From: Sinanaerobacter sp. ZZT-01
GTDB taxonomy: Bacteria; Bacillota; Clostridia; Peptostreptococcales; Anaerovoracaceae
NCBI RefSeq assembly: GCF_035621135.1
Contig: NZ_CP141728.1
Span: forward strand, 2,604,001-2,668,000
Length of the DNA stretch: 64,000 bases
Direction of reading: 5' to 3'
The translations under genes were made by a program, and so were the position numbers. Under the pieces are notes generated by a model. That model saw only the letters and a program-made list of their open reading frames with translations. It did no database searches and was not told the origin of the DNA. This document shows positions 58,688 to 63,794 of the stretch, piece after piece. Position 1 is the first letter of the stretch. Each line of letters starts with the position of its first letter.

Positions 58688-60142
58688 TTAGGACATCAAA
58701 TTTAATTCCTCTAGCATACACTGCTTAAGCAACAGTAAACTGCATTCTAGGTCTCTTAGCGGGAGATATGAATAGGAAATCCTAATTGAATTATTCGCAT
58801 GACTTGAATATATATCTCCTGGACAAAACAGAACTTTGTTTTTCAGACATCTCTGAAAAAGTTTAGAAACGGATATATTGGGGTTGATACTAAGCCAAAT
58901 GTACACACCACCTTTTGGGATACTCCAACTGCAGAGTCCATGGAAATTGCGATTGAGGATATCAAGTACAAAGTCGCGCCGCTCTCTGAGGCATCCTCTA
59001 ATGTGTTCTAGATGCTGTGAATAATAAGTACTCTCCACTAGAAAGTTCATTAGTCTTTGTGAAAGTGTATTTGTTCCCAAATCAATCTGAGTTTTGATGT
59101 CTGCAAGCCTATCGATAACGGGTTTCGTTCCTACTATCCAGCCAAGTCTGAATCCTGGAAACAAAACCTTTGAGCAGCTTCCAACAAGTAGAATAAGCTC
59201 ATTCGTATCATAAAACTTAAGTGGAATTGGTTTGCGCTCTGTAAAATACAATTCACGATAGGTATCATCCTCTATCACTGGAAGTTTTCTGTTTTGGCAA
59301 AATTGATAGAGCCTTTTCTTTCTTTCCTCACTCATCAATATTCCAGTTGGGTTGTTGAAATTTGGAATGCTGTATAAAATAGAGGCATTCGTCTGTGAGT
59401 GAGTTTTTTCAAGATTAGCTATACTAATACCATTCTCATCGGCTGGAATTCCAAACAACCTCATACCAGCAGATTGAAAAACATTAACACTATAAATATA
59501 AGATTGGGCCTCGGTCAAAATCGCCGAGCCTCTAAATAAGATGCCAGCCGAGATAAGGTATAATGCTTGCAATGCACCTGATACTATTAGAATTTGATCA
59601 GGGTTTACCTTTACGCCAAGATCGGCATAATAGCTGCACAAGTTCTCTCGTAACAAAAAATTGCCATTTGGGTGATCGTATCCGAGAGAATCGGGATCTA
59701 GCGCATTATACATTCGCATTTCCTTCAGCATTTCTGGTATGAACAATTCTTTTGATAGCTCTGGACGAGTCAAGGCGTAGATATCGGTACGATGTTCGTT
59801 ATTATTAATCAGTTGAACGGTACTTTTATTTGGATAGTGACTTCCTGCATGGATATAGGAAGTCCAGTTCGGTGGTGGTGGCGCGTTAAGAGAAGAAGCA
59901 TTATTCTTGACAATTGTGCCTCCTTTGCCATTACTTTTTATAAGATCGTCCGCAGCAAGTAATTCGGTAGCCGTAACTACTGTACTTCTATTAACGCCAA
60001 ATTGGATAGCGAGCTCTTTTTGAGTCGGTAACTTTGTTCCAATGGGTAAGGTCCCAGAAAAGATACAGCTCTTTATATAACTATAAATTTGTAAATAGCA
60101 GGGAGTGCTACTTTCAAAATTAAGACTCCATTCTTCAAACAT
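58688..60142 (-). CDS. MocR-type transcription regulator (GntR winged helix + aminotransferase fold)
   Basis: 484 residues. Residues about 10-78 form a GntR winged helix (KLPTQKELAIQFGVNRSTVV). Residues about 115-484 are a fold-type I aminotransferase domain with PLP lysine K325 (GSCSKVLFPGFRLGW). MocR regulators bind PLP plus a small amino compound and usually control a neighbouring operon. It is divergent from the dehydratase/cyclodeaminase pair across 156 bases, as EnuR is next to the ectoine utilisation genes, so it probably controls that pair. It lacks amino-transfer partners of its own. Confidence 0.9.
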   Translation of the reverse strand: MFEEWSLNFESSTPCYLQIYSYIKSCIFSGTLPIGTKLPTQKELAIQFGVNRSTVVTATELLAADDLIKSNGKGGTIVKNNASSLNAPPPPNWTSYIHAGSHYPNKSTVQLINNNEHRTDIYALTRPELSKELFIPEMLKEMRMYNALDPDSLGYDHPNGNFLLRENLCSYYADLGVKVNPDQILIVSGALQALYLISAGILFRGSAILTEAQSYIYSVNVFQSAGMRLFGIPADENGISIANLEKTHSQTNASILYSIPNFNNPTGILMSEERKKRLYQFCQNRKLPVIEDDTYRELYFTERKPIPLKFYDTNELILLVGSCSKVLFPGFRLGWIVGTKPVIDRLADIKTQIDLGTNTLSQRLMNFLVESTYYSQHLEHIRGCLRERRDFVLDILNRNFHGLCSWSIPKGGVYIWLSINPNISVSKLFQRCLKNKVLFCPGDIYSSHANNSIRISYSYLPLRDLECSLLLLKQCMLEELNLMS

Positions 60143-60225
60143 GGTATACTCCTTATATTTACGGTTGGGTAGTTAAAAAAAATAGTGATGTGGACGAACG
60201 TGTTTATTTTAATTAGTATATAGCT

Positions 60226-60275
60226 ATAATTATAACAGTTGGTCATAATTATGCAATTTATTGTTGGTAATTATA
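60226..60275. promoter_or_regulatory. Candidate MocR operator repeats
   Basis: Three similar A/T-rich boxes, ATAATTATA (60226), ATAATTATG (60245) and GTAATTATA (60267), lie between the regulator and the enzyme pair. TATAAT at 60225-60230 may also be the -10 of the pair. Confidence 0.35.
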
Positions 60276-60298
60276 CCTGTAGTTTAAGGAGGAAAAAA

Positions 60299-61267
60299 AT
60301 GTTTATACAATTTACAGACATACTTGGTGCAAAAAAGAGAATTGATTCGTTTATCAGGAAAACGCCATTTGAATATTCACCTAAATTATCAGAATCACTT
60401 AATGCGGAGATCTATTTAAAACTTGAGTCGTGTCAAACCACAGGATCATTCAAACTGCGTGGCGCTGCGAACAAAATATTACAATTGACACAAGAAGAAA
60501 AATCAGCAGGGATTATCACTGCTTCGGCGGGTAACCATGCTCAAGGCGTGGCATATATCGCAAGAGCACTCAATGTCGATACTGTAATTGTCATTCCAGA
60601 GAGTGCACCAGAGACTAAAATTGAAAACACAAAACGATATGGAGTTACTGTGGTAGTCAAGGGAAAGGATTATGATGATAGTGAACGAATAGCTCATGAA
60701 ATGGAGAAGCAAACTGGCAGAACTTACATCCCTGCTTATGATGATCCGATGATAATGGCCGGTCAAGGCACTGTTGGATTAGAAATGCTCCAAGAGGAAA
60801 GTGATCTTGATATGGTAATAGTTCCTGTCGGCGGTGGGGGACTTATGACGGGTGTTGCAACAGCAGTTAAGGGCATAAATCCAAATGTTAAAGTAATTGG
60901 TGTTCAACCTCAAGTATCGAAGCCGTGGTTTGAAGCTTTTTATCAAAAAAAATATATTAAAGAAGTGTTTGGTGATTCTTGGGCGGATGGGCTTACAGGT
61001 GATATCAGTGCTAGCATGATTAATGATTTTAATGCTGTTGTTGATGACATGGTGCTTATTGACGAAGAGTCGATACAGCAGGCAATATTTTATATGATTG
61101 ACAAGCATCACCTTATCGTAGAAGGTTCTGGAGTTGCTGGCATAGCAGCTTTAATATCTGAGAAGATCGAAGTTAAGGATAAGAAAGTCGGAATAGTTGT
61201 AACCGGAAGTAATCTTGACACAAAACGTGTCAAGACCATTGTTGATAAATATGTGAAGGAGGACTAA
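60299..61267 (+). CDS. PLP-dependent threonine/serine-type dehydratase (EutB/BhcB-like)
   Basis: 322 residues from ATG 60299 with AAGGAGG 6 bases before it. Fold-type II PLP enzyme: lysine K52 in TTGSFKLRGA, phosphate loop PVGGGGLMTG (residues 177-185), SAGNHAQGVA near residue 77, and a C-terminal TGSNLD. It lacks the ACT-like regulatory tail of IlvA. Its stop overlaps the next gene (TAATG). Family possibilities are threonine ammonia-lyase, EutB or beta-hydroxyaspartate dehydratase (BhcB). The pairing with a cyclodeaminase-like enzyme favours the last two. Confidence 0.85.
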   Translation: MFIQFTDILGAKKRIDSFIRKTPFEYSPKLSESLNAEIYLKLESCQTTGSFKLRGAANKILQLTQEEKSAGIITASAGNHAQGVAYIARALNVDTVIVIPESAPETKIENTKRYGVTVVVKGKDYDDSERIAHEMEKQTGRTYIPAYDDPMIMAGQGTVGLEMLQEESDLDMVIVPVGGGGLMTGVATAVKGINPNVKVIGVQPQVSKPWFEAFYQKKYIKEVFGDSWADGLTGDISASMINDFNAVVDDMVLIDEESIQQAIFYMIDKHHLIVEGSGVAGIAALISEKIEVKDKKVGIVVTGSNLDTKRVKTIVDKYVKED

Positions 61268-62262
61268 TGATGAACACACTTCTATTGAATCTGAATGAGG
61301 TGCAATCACTACTTACAATTGAAGATACTGTTGAAGCAGTTAAAGCTGGATACATGGCGTTTAATAGGGGAGTAGTGCAAATGCCACCTGTTGTATCGTT
61401 AATGGCTCATAAGTTTAATGGAGAAATGGACTTCAAGATGGGGTATTCAGAGCAAGAAGATATAATTGGAATAAAGATGGCGGGGGGATATTGGGACAAT
61501 CCAAAAAAATACAATCTCCCATCGGGTTTAGCAATGATATGTTTGTTTGATGCTGCAAACGGTGTCCCGATATGTATACTGGATGGGACATTGATAACTG
61601 GATATAGGACAGCCGCTGCAGGAACAATCGGCGCTCTTTGTCTGGCAAGAAAGGATGCTGAAAATATTGCTATGATCGGCACGGGGATGCAAGCGCGATT
61701 ACAGGTTATGGCTCTATCAAAATATTTCAACATTAAAAATGTTAGAGTATACGGGATTGAGGGTCAAGAAAAATATGTCGAGGAGATGCAAAGTCAACAT
61801 CCTGACATCCATTTCAGTGCCACATCTGCTCAGGAGGCCGTTGAGAATGCTGAAATTGTTATTACTGCGACAGCCAGTCACAATGCACTTGTATACGATC
61901 AATGGGTAAAGCCGGGGACACATATCAATGCGATAGGATGCGATATGGAGGGTAAGCAAGAACTTGATCCTAGTATTTTCATGAGGGCAAAAATTGTCAA
62001 CGATAGTAGAATGGAATGCAAAAAAAGAGGTGATACTCAGCATCCATTCAAGGCAGGTCATATTACTGACGATAACATACATGCTGAGATAGGTGAAATA
62101 CTGCTTGGCCAAAAGTGTGGTAGAGAAAATGAGAACGAGATTACCATTTTTGATGCTACCGGCTTATCAGTGCAGGATATTAATACGTCACTATTTGTAT
62201 ACCGAAAAGCTATCAAAAATAACGTTGGAAAGAATATTGAGGTTTTTGATGTAAATATCTAA
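61267..62262 (+). CDS. Ornithine cyclodeaminase family protein (EutC/BhcD-like)
   Basis: 331 residues. A Rossmann motif GTGMQA (138-143) binds NAD(P). K70 and D226 match the catalytic pair of the family, and DNPKKYNLPSGLAMI plus ITGYRTAAAGTIG are typical. Members include ornithine cyclodeaminase, alanine dehydrogenase and the imine-reducing BhcD/EutC. GGAGGA precedes ATG 61267, which overlaps the dehydratase stop by one base. Together the pair could turn a hydroxy amino acid into an enamine/imine and reduce it. Confidence 0.85.
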   Translation: MMNTLLLNLNEVQSLLTIEDTVEAVKAGYMAFNRGVVQMPPVVSLMAHKFNGEMDFKMGYSEQEDIIGIKMAGGYWDNPKKYNLPSGLAMICLFDAANGVPICILDGTLITGYRTAAAGTIGALCLARKDAENIAMIGTGMQARLQVMALSKYFNIKNVRVYGIEGQEKYVEEMQSQHPDIHFSATSAQEAVENAEIVITATASHNALVYDQWVKPGTHINAIGCDMEGKQELDPSIFMRAKIVNDSRMECKKRGDTQHPFKAGHITDDNIHAEIGEILLGQKCGRENENEITIFDATGLSVQDINTSLFVYRKAIKNNVGKNIEVFDVNI

Positions 62263-62367: not shown

Positions 62368-62472
62368 ATTGTCGAGAAAAATCCTTCCGCCAAGAAATCA
62401 GTGGATTCTGACGTCATCATTATTGTCTATTCAAGGCATACGGAATGTGTTTGTTTGTTGGAGAAGAGATAA
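62368..62472 (+). pseudogene. Diverged 3' remnant of an rlmCD-like gene
   Basis: An open stretch ends SRHTECVCLLEKR and stop, matching HTEVVCLLER at the end of the RlmCD-type gene. GTTTGTTTGTTGGAG is shared exactly (58345-58359 and 62449-62463). The N-terminal part reads DVIIIVYS and does not match. It has no start codon of its own. The rest of 62263-62515 shows no gene. Confidence 0.55.
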
Positions 62473-62859: not shown

Positions 62860-63693
62860 ATGGTAAAAAATCATATGAATTTATTTTTCCCACAATGGCA
62901 GGGAGCAGGAAGAAACAAAATCCTTTTAACGGGAGCGCAAGAAATAAAAGAAAAGTATCTTGAGAACTACCATTTATCTGAGATTGAGGTGGATGATGAA
63001 GAGATTGATGAGATAGTTAATGACATTTTAGGCTATTCAAAAATTCTTACGCAACTAAAAAATGCCAGCTTAATGGTTTCAGCGGAAGAGCCGGAAAGTA
63101 TCTTTACCATTGGTGGAGGTTGTGATGTAGAAATAGTTCCGGTGTCATATTTGAATAAAAAATTTAAAGGGGATATGACTGTTTTATGGATTGATGCTCA
63201 TGGTGATTTAAATACCCCTGAATCATCTCCTAGTAAAAATTTTCATGGCATGCCTTTAAGGACACTATTGGGGGATGGAGACTCGAAGATAGCGGAGATA
63301 TTATTTTCACAATTATTGCCTTCACAAATTGTCCTAATTGGGCAAAGAAGTTTGGATGAACCTGAACGTAAATATATAGAAGAGCGTAAAATTAATCAAA
63401 TGAGCATAGAAGAGATAGTTAACAATATTGAACATGTTATCAGTATAATTAAAACAAAAAATTCAAACAACATCTACATACACATTGATTTGGATGTTTT
63501 AGATATGAATGAATTCCCATATGTTATGGTGCCGGAGCCAAATGGGTTAGAATCACAATTGCTCTTTGAGTTATTAACGCAGCTAAAAGAAAATTTCAAT
63601 ATTGTGGGCTTGAGTTTATTGGAATATATTCCATCAGATGAGAAGAATATAAAAATATTATCGGATATCATACAACTAGGCTTGAACCTATAA
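62860..63693 (+). CDS. Ureohydrolase (arginase/agmatinase superfamily), atypical
   Basis: 277 residues. Metal motifs: GGGC (85-88) where most family members have GGDH, D112-A-H114-G-D116, and D210-L-D212. HGMPLRTLLG (129-138) follows. The first ligand histidine is thus a cysteine, and the preceding aspartate a glycine; a GGxC variant exists in some Firmicute branches. The probable substrate is a guanidino compound, but the exact one is unknown. It has its own GAGGAAAAGG ribosome site and lies 597 bases after the dehydratase/cyclodeaminase pair. An arginine-to-ornithine role would link it to a cyclodeaminase. Confidence 0.8.
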   Translation: MVKNHMNLFFPQWQGAGRNKILLTGAQEIKEKYLENYHLSEIEVDDEEIDEIVNDILGYSKILTQLKNASLMVSAEEPESIFTIGGGCDVEIVPVSYLNKKFKGDMTVLWIDAHGDLNTPESSPSKNFHGMPLRTLLGDGDSKIAEILFSQLLPSQIVLIGQRSLDEPERKYIEERKINQMSIEEIVNNIEHVISIIKTKNSNNIYIHIDLDVLDMNEFPYVMVPEPNGLESQLLFELLTQLKENFNIVGLSLLEYIPSDEKNIKILSDIIQLGLNL

Positions 63694-63698
63694 AATAG

Positions 63699-63794
63699 TT
63701 AAAACTATTCCATAAGGCACAACTAGATTCGTATGACATCGTTATTGCAGCATCACGGCATACGGAAGCAATCGTGAAGCTGGGAAAATGCTAA
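63699..63794 (+). pseudogene. Short coding remnant related to the 62.4-kb fragment
   Basis: An open stretch reads LDSYDIVIAASRHTEAIVKL then GKC and stop, without a start codon. SRHTE and the DNA GGCATACGGAA (11 bases) are shared with the fragment at 62368-62472. The origin is unknown. Confidence 0.35.

Follow-up and report, generated by a model that had tools for sequence, protein, structure and literature searches.

A MocR-linked dehydratase and reductase pair in Sinanaerobacter sp. ZZT-01 as a candidate module for amino-acid dehydroxylation

The removal of a hydroxyl group from an amino acid by a dehydratase working with an imine reductase has been described or proposed in several systems. 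In ectoine degradation, EutB is a pyridoxal 5'-phosphate (PLP)-dependent dehydratase whose gene overlaps that of EutC, a reductase of the ornithine cyclodeaminase (OCD) family; many of these clusters contain a MocR-type regulator (EnuR/EhuR), and net hydroxyl removal has been proposed for the pair, a dehydration-reduction step that is stated as untested in PMC5924519. Similarly, BhcB and BhcD of the β-hydroxyaspartate cycle, which belong to the same protein families, follow the logic of dehydration and imine reduction, and trans-3-hydroxyproline dehydratase acts with pyrroline-2-carboxylate reductase, so that a 3-hydroxy amino acid is dehydrated and the ketimine is then reduced by an OCD-family enzyme (PMC4113996). 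Here, a locus of Sinanaerobacter sp. ZZT-01 is compared with these systems. It lies in a window of 64,000 nucleotides (NZ_CP141728.1, positions 2,604,001 to 2,668,000; the coordinates below are those of the window), where a MocR-type regulator gene diverges from overlapping genes for a PLP dehydratase and an OCD-family reductase. A MocR-controlled dehydratase and imine reductase module is the best reading of this locus, with a probability of about 0.62, and the coupled two-step mechanism is moderately supported. With the three systems above as precedents, it is probable that the window pair performs a net dehydroxylation.

The three open reading frames (ORFs) are all present and intact, as a sequence-only reading of the locus had described them: the regulator matches PF00392 (GntR helix-turn-helix) and PF00155 (aminotransferase), the dehydratase PF00291 (265 bits) and the reductase PF02423 (273 bits), and the stop codon TAA of the dehydratase gene (61265-61267) overlaps the ATG of the reductase gene (61267) by one base. 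The dehydratase ORF was listed with 342 aa from a TTG start at 60239; since a Shine-Dalgarno sequence, aaggagg, stands immediately 5' of an ATG at 60299, the real length is about 322 aa. The sequence aaggagga lies a little upstream of the reductase ATG, and both enzymes are probably made from one transcript. The same divergent arrangement of MocR, dehydratase and reductase genes was found in Bacilliculturomica massiliensis (L035, the same as L041), which NCBI places in the Anaerovoracaceae, and in a genome from another family of the host's order (G453, L058), with dehydratases 58-62% and reductases 49-62% identical to those of the window. The unit is thereby kept in three genera and two families, and its dehydratases and reductases from the window, L035 and L058 are called lineage A below. 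Maximum-likelihood trees of the reductase, the dehydratase and the MocR protein, which has orthologues in both genomes, each gave (L058,(window, L035)) with starred support. One history for three proteins that also stay together argues against a chance neighbourhood, and the arrangement is more than chance.

The dehydratase has the conserved catalytic residues of PLP fold type II enzymes, namely the lysine of SFKLRGA and the GGGGL loop, which it shares with TdcB and IlvA, and like a catabolic threonine dehydratase it has no regulatory ACT domain: its 322 aa cover only positions 1-298 of 380 in the ilvA_1Cterm model and stop before that domain. TdcB is its best PDB match. The best NCBIfam dehydratase models scored below their cut-offs (ilvA_1Cterm 350/379, TdcB 324/453, EutB 291/413 and BhcB 227/550 bits), and the top two are of the threonine dehydratase type. 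At the position of serine racemase Ser84, the window dehydratase has Ala and the L035 protein Ser. A separate IlvA-like protein (402 aa) is encoded elsewhere in the genome, in an ilv-type operon between ilvD-like and ilvE-like genes, so the window dehydratase is probably not needed for isoleucine. Approximately unbiased (AU) tests rejected the grouping of the lineage A dehydratase with BhcB (p=1.6e-5), TdcB (p=0.001), IlvA (p=0.002) and the dehydratases of the clade C described below (p=0.007) and, less sharply, with EutB alone (p=0.016); the best tree groups lineage A with a Priestia protein (L086) and EutB (support 84/85). A diaminopropionate synthesis of the SbnA/SbnB type was considered and rejected, as the threonine dehydratase scores stand far above the cysteine synthase scores and SbnB reaches 137 bits against a cut-off of 327.

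The reductase also reached none of its NCBIfam cut-offs (ala_DH_arch 299/409, cyclodeaminase 248/408, EutC 227/472 and BhcD 201/500 bits). Its fold was compared through an AlphaFold model (predicted local distance difference test, pLDDT, 78), and by both sequence and modelled fold the nearest solved proteins were A. fulgidus alanine dehydrogenase (1omo), T. litoralis pyrroline-2-carboxylate reductase (6t3e) and P. denitrificans BhcD (6rqa), with P. putida ornithine cyclodeaminase ranking behind them. In the P. putida enzyme, ornithine needs Arg45, Glu56, Lys69, Arg112 and Asp228 (PMC3840593, PMC3497308); the counterparts in the window reductase, read from an alignment to a rhizobial OCD, are V42, K57, K70, R114 and D226, so that two of the five are missing. 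As judged from these residues, the reductase is predicted to retain ketimine chemistry and to have lost the recognition of ornithine. A true ornithine cyclodeaminase working with arginase was rejected on these residues and on the gene context. Such an arginine/ornithine route is one in which the arginase-like gene downstream would make ornithine, the OCD-family protein would cyclise it to proline and the dehydratase would be incidental. True rocF-ocd pairs exist (L089) and an arginase-family gene does follow the pair; even so, this route is highly improbable, given the two replaced residues, a distance of 600 bp, the lack of conservation of the arginase gene with the unit, a score of its protein under the rocF cut-off (118/228 bits) and the GGGCDV that replaces its usual metal-binding motif.

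The pair of an aliphatic residue at position 45 and Lys at position 56 is common to the window reductase and to EutC and BhcD, the two that act beside PLP dehydratases, and is absent from alanine dehydrogenase, pyrroline-2-carboxylate reductase and ornithine cyclodeaminase, in a comparison of one to three sequences per enzyme type; EutC and BhcD may belong to one weakly supported superclade (88/85), so the likenesses are not independent of each other. In the reductase tree, EutC falls outside the clade that unites types A, B and C (94/91), with p=0.08 in the AU test for a grouping of lineage A with EutC, and a grouping of lineage A with alanine dehydrogenase was rejected (p=0.009). This is relevant to the explanation that the two proteins work separately in catabolism, one as a threonine/serine deaminase that yields 2-oxobutyrate/pyruvate and the other as an alanine dehydrogenase-like enzyme that draws on the oxo acid pool, under shared regulation but with no imine handed over. 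The net chemistry would be identical, the closest relative of the reductase by sequence and fold is the A. fulgidus alanine dehydrogenase, ala_DH_arch is its best NCBIfam model, though under the cut-off, and RidA is present in the genome. On the other hand, the rejected grouping stands against this explanation, as do K57 and V42, which match EutC and BhcD and not alanine dehydrogenase (R, K), and we consider it unlikely. The agreement of the trees, the gene overlap, the presence of another IlvA in the genome and the lack of Arg45 and Glu56 all speak against an independent threonine deaminase and ornithine cyclodeaminase, the alternative named in the sequence-only reading.

Table 1. Features of the locus in window coordinates
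Feature	Position	Strand	Remarks
MocR-type regulator	58688..60142	-	484 aa; GntR helix-turn-helix and PLP aminotransferase-like domain; faces enzyme pair
Divergent promoter region	60143..60298		between MocR and dehydratase genes
PLP fold-type II dehydratase	60299..61267	+	~322 aa; no ACT domain; nearest TdcB/IlvA-type
OCD/mu-crystallin family NAD(P)H reductase	61267..62262	+	331 aa; PF02423
Arginase-family (ureohydrolase) gene	62860..63693	+	600 bp downstream of pair; considered outside unit

In the coupled module, the dehydratase would use PLP to eliminate water from a 3-hydroxy amino acid and release an enamine/2-imino acid, and the OCD-family partner would use NAD(P)H to reduce the imine (or the 2-oxo acid and ammonia), which yields the deoxy amino acid; this succession of dehydration and reduction, put forward in the sequence-only reading, remains the best account of the pair. 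In net terms an amino acid would be dehydroxylated, with one reducing equivalent spent, the amino group kept and the reactive intermediate disposed of. Two papers (PMC4433059, PMC12188003) describe the enamines of threonine/serine dehydratases as reactive and harmful to PLP enzymes if they are not cleared, a task that usually falls to RidA. A reductase produced together with the dehydratase would trap this intermediate and restore NAD(P)+. The host genome (a single contig of 3.37 Mb) seems to encode ornithine fermentation enzymes, to go by what the sequences of L073 look like, and the host is therefore most likely an amino-acid fermenter, in which the module may serve as an electron sink. In the neighbourhoods of the homologous units, no transporter or further catabolic gene was conserved beside the unit, which favours an amino acid that is common inside the cell over an exotic one. 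The conversions of threonine to 2-aminobutyrate and/or of serine to alanine, taken together, are the likeliest reactions, an assignment to which we give slightly less than an even chance. In C. sticklandii, threonine is turned into 2-aminobutyrate by a dehydratase and reductive amination (PMC3091704).

Several observations weigh against the coupled module. The exact unit is rare, with just 3 occurrences in the ~1,500 genomes searched, a lower bound because the searches were thresholded and flanks were checked for only part of the hits. The enzyme genes of L035 are ~50 bp apart, so gene overlap is not universal in the unit. The genome also has two RidA proteins at other loci, which means that the reductase is not the sole route of imine disposal. 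Finally, members of the reductase clade also stand beside another kind of PLP enzyme, and the imine may thus be something other than the simple dehydration product. A RidA gene (L080, G000:C1:2,691,173) is located directly upstream of a gene resembling tryptophanase or tyrosine phenol-lyase.

The clade of the window reductase (94/91) holds two further types of unit, B and C. The B type, found at about a dozen loci in Clostridia, combines a related MocR protein, a PLP fold-type I enzyme nearest PRK07324/GntC/VioD and a reductase, usually with a PhzF-family isomerase. Such enzymes are related to hydroxyarginine cyclodehydratase and capreomycidine synthase, and the GntC/VioD family dehydrates hydroxyarginines. 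The host itself has such an operon (L036 8103-12668; G000:C1:1,814,100-1,818,670), with a GntC/VioD-like enzyme, a reductase, a PhzF-family isomerase, a MocR protein and a conserved operator. In the C type, the reductase stands with a dehydratase of a different lineage under a LysR regulator (L064, L038, L099) or, in rhizobia (L083-L085), near an Lrp-type regulator. The reductase is thus repeatedly found with a PLP enzyme, though not always of the same kind, and its recurrence with another dehydratase lineage in clade C and the rhizobia speaks for the coupled module. The rhizobial pairs, which are of a related clade, lie on plasmids (L083 12001-13961, L084 10001-11961, L085 8001-13298) near a peptide-type ATP-binding cassette (ABC) transporter, a flavin adenine dinucleotide (FAD) oxidoreductase and the Lrp regulator, and their annotation says no more than ornithine cyclodeaminase and threonine/serine dehydratase; the two genes of the S. 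meliloti ml47 pair (L085) are separated by a gene for a group II intron reverse transcriptase and by an insertion sequence (IS) element.

The B-type units, with their GntC/VioD-like enzyme, lend some weight to the explanation that a specialised hydroxy amino acid is deoxygenated in place of threonine or serine, for instance 3-hydroxyaspartate, 3-hydroxy-arginine/ornithine, phenylserine or a hydroxyectoine-like compound. The BhcBD and EutBC precedents use unusual hydroxy amino acids, and the arginase-family gene 600 bp downstream would suit such a substrate. This explanation is nevertheless doubtful, because no uptake or downstream genes are conserved with the unit, no arginase-family match was seen beside homologous units, lineage A stands apart from BhcB and, less sharply, from EutB, and EutD, BhcA and BhcC were not found over cut-off in the genome.

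The boldest form of the dehydroxylation reading is that of a dedicated anaerobic threonine/serine dehydroxylase, in which the coupled pair would turn L-threonine into L-2-aminobutyrate (or serine into alanine) and set free no ammonia, as an electron sink not recognised before, and in which the wider clade would consist of general PLP-partnered imine reductases whose PLP partner, a dehydratase or a GntC/VioD-like enzyme, is exchanged to change the substrate. We regard this form as rather unlikely. If true, it would account, at the level of genes, for the 2-aminobutyrate long known as a product of some clostridia. The coupled module as such, if right, would offer genetic access to the way in which amino-acid-fermenting anaerobes form 2-aminobutyrate or alanine. 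It would also add a further lineage to a design principle in which a PLP eliminase and an OCD-family imine reductase remove a hydroxyl group and retain the nitrogen, with the PLP partner swapped in a modular way. The reductase clade may be of use in amine synthesis. The findings also suggest that many "ornithine cyclodeaminase" annotations within this clade are wrong.

As for regulation, the window protein joins its GntR domain to a fold-type I aminotransferase domain with the PLP lysine, and its sequence carries GSCSKVLFPGFRLGW; it would respond to a PLP-linked amino acid signal. A MocR regulon survey names threonine dehydratases and PhzF among the targets in pathways without an assigned role (PMC5320631), so such associations had already been glimpsed. 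The direct repeat TTGGTTGG-N14/15-TTGGWTGG was found in B-type promoters and in that of L058 (12 of 14 related regions), a result equalled by 0-2 of 200 shuffles, and a scan gave one or two matches in five of six genomes and none for the reversed control. In the promoter region of the window unit, a GGTTGGG half site stands close to the start of MocR, and GTTGGT forms a loose direct repeat with a 25-bp period; the repeat resembles the motif, yet an equal score was reached by 9 of 200 shuffles. In the window and L035, the motif is weak, with half sites only, and the window operator is thus not established. The TTGGTTGG direct repeat also occurs between another MocR gene of the same family and a gene of the Na+/H+ antiporter family (PF03553; L101, G008:C21:1,775,790), which suggests that this MocR subfamily may also control transport.

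The downstream arginase-family protein appears to be a divergent ureohydrolase. Arginases usually carry a metal-binding GGDHS, and the window protein reads GGGCDV at this position. Two similar, non-coding-looking stretches (62400-62450 and 63720-63790) flank its gene and translate to fragments of the form ...VII..SRHTE...; they are possibly gene remnants or a duplication. An Rfam scan of the locus gave no match, and a sigma-70 and terminator scan gave scores not above those of shuffled sequence.

When the locus is set beside the described systems, its reductase resembles EutC in the motif GExDxK...GFFDNPK, with Lys at the position of E56. The comparison with BhcB/BhcD and EutB/EutC profiles was carried out as the sequence-only reading had advised, and both window enzymes stayed below all four cut-offs. 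In fact, all three proteins of the unit, the regulator against EhuR included, are below the Eut cut-offs; the best trees tend to set lineage A apart from the Eut enzymes, less clearly so for EutB, which shares a group with the lineage A dehydratase. The dehydratase scored 291/254 bits against an EutB cut-off of 413 and the reductase 227/248 bits against 472/408. The best genome-wide score for the ectoine hydrolase EutD/DoeA was 51 bits (cut-off 613), and no ectoine transporter genes were seen beside the unit; EutBC membership was rejected on the failed cut-offs and the lack of EutD over cut-off in the genome. Similarly, membership of the β-hydroxyaspartate cycle was rejected, as both enzymes are far under the Bhc cut-offs, the BhcB grouping failed and BhcA (38/650 bits) and BhcC (29/690 bits) were not found genome-wide, in agreement with the sequence-only reading, which had seen neither these nor the other ectoine genes here. 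The divergent MocR gene, cited earlier as a feature of both systems, holds as a precedent for ectoine clusters but not for the Bhc cycle, where BhcR is an IclR-type regulator. The trans-3-hydroxyproline system differs in that its dehydratase belongs to the proline racemase family, is not PLP-dependent and gives a cyclic product. The alanine dehydrogenase 1omo, the best PDB match of the reductase, performs the same chemistry on the imine of an oxo acid and ammonia; it is 37% identical to the window reductase in the structural alignment, and membership of the archaeal type was rejected on its model score and the AU test. TdcB and IlvA, on the other hand, are not paired with a reductase as the window dehydratase is. 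Literature searches for dehydratase, OCD and MocR combinations and for PhzF with OCD found no paper on the window unit, so that "undescribed" is a fair term for the lineage as far as the literature was searched, whereas the kind of system has the precedents named at the outset. As judged by these profiles and the genome-wide searches for EutD, BhcA and BhcC, the unit is a distinct lineage, neither EutBC nor BhcBD, though predicted to work like both.

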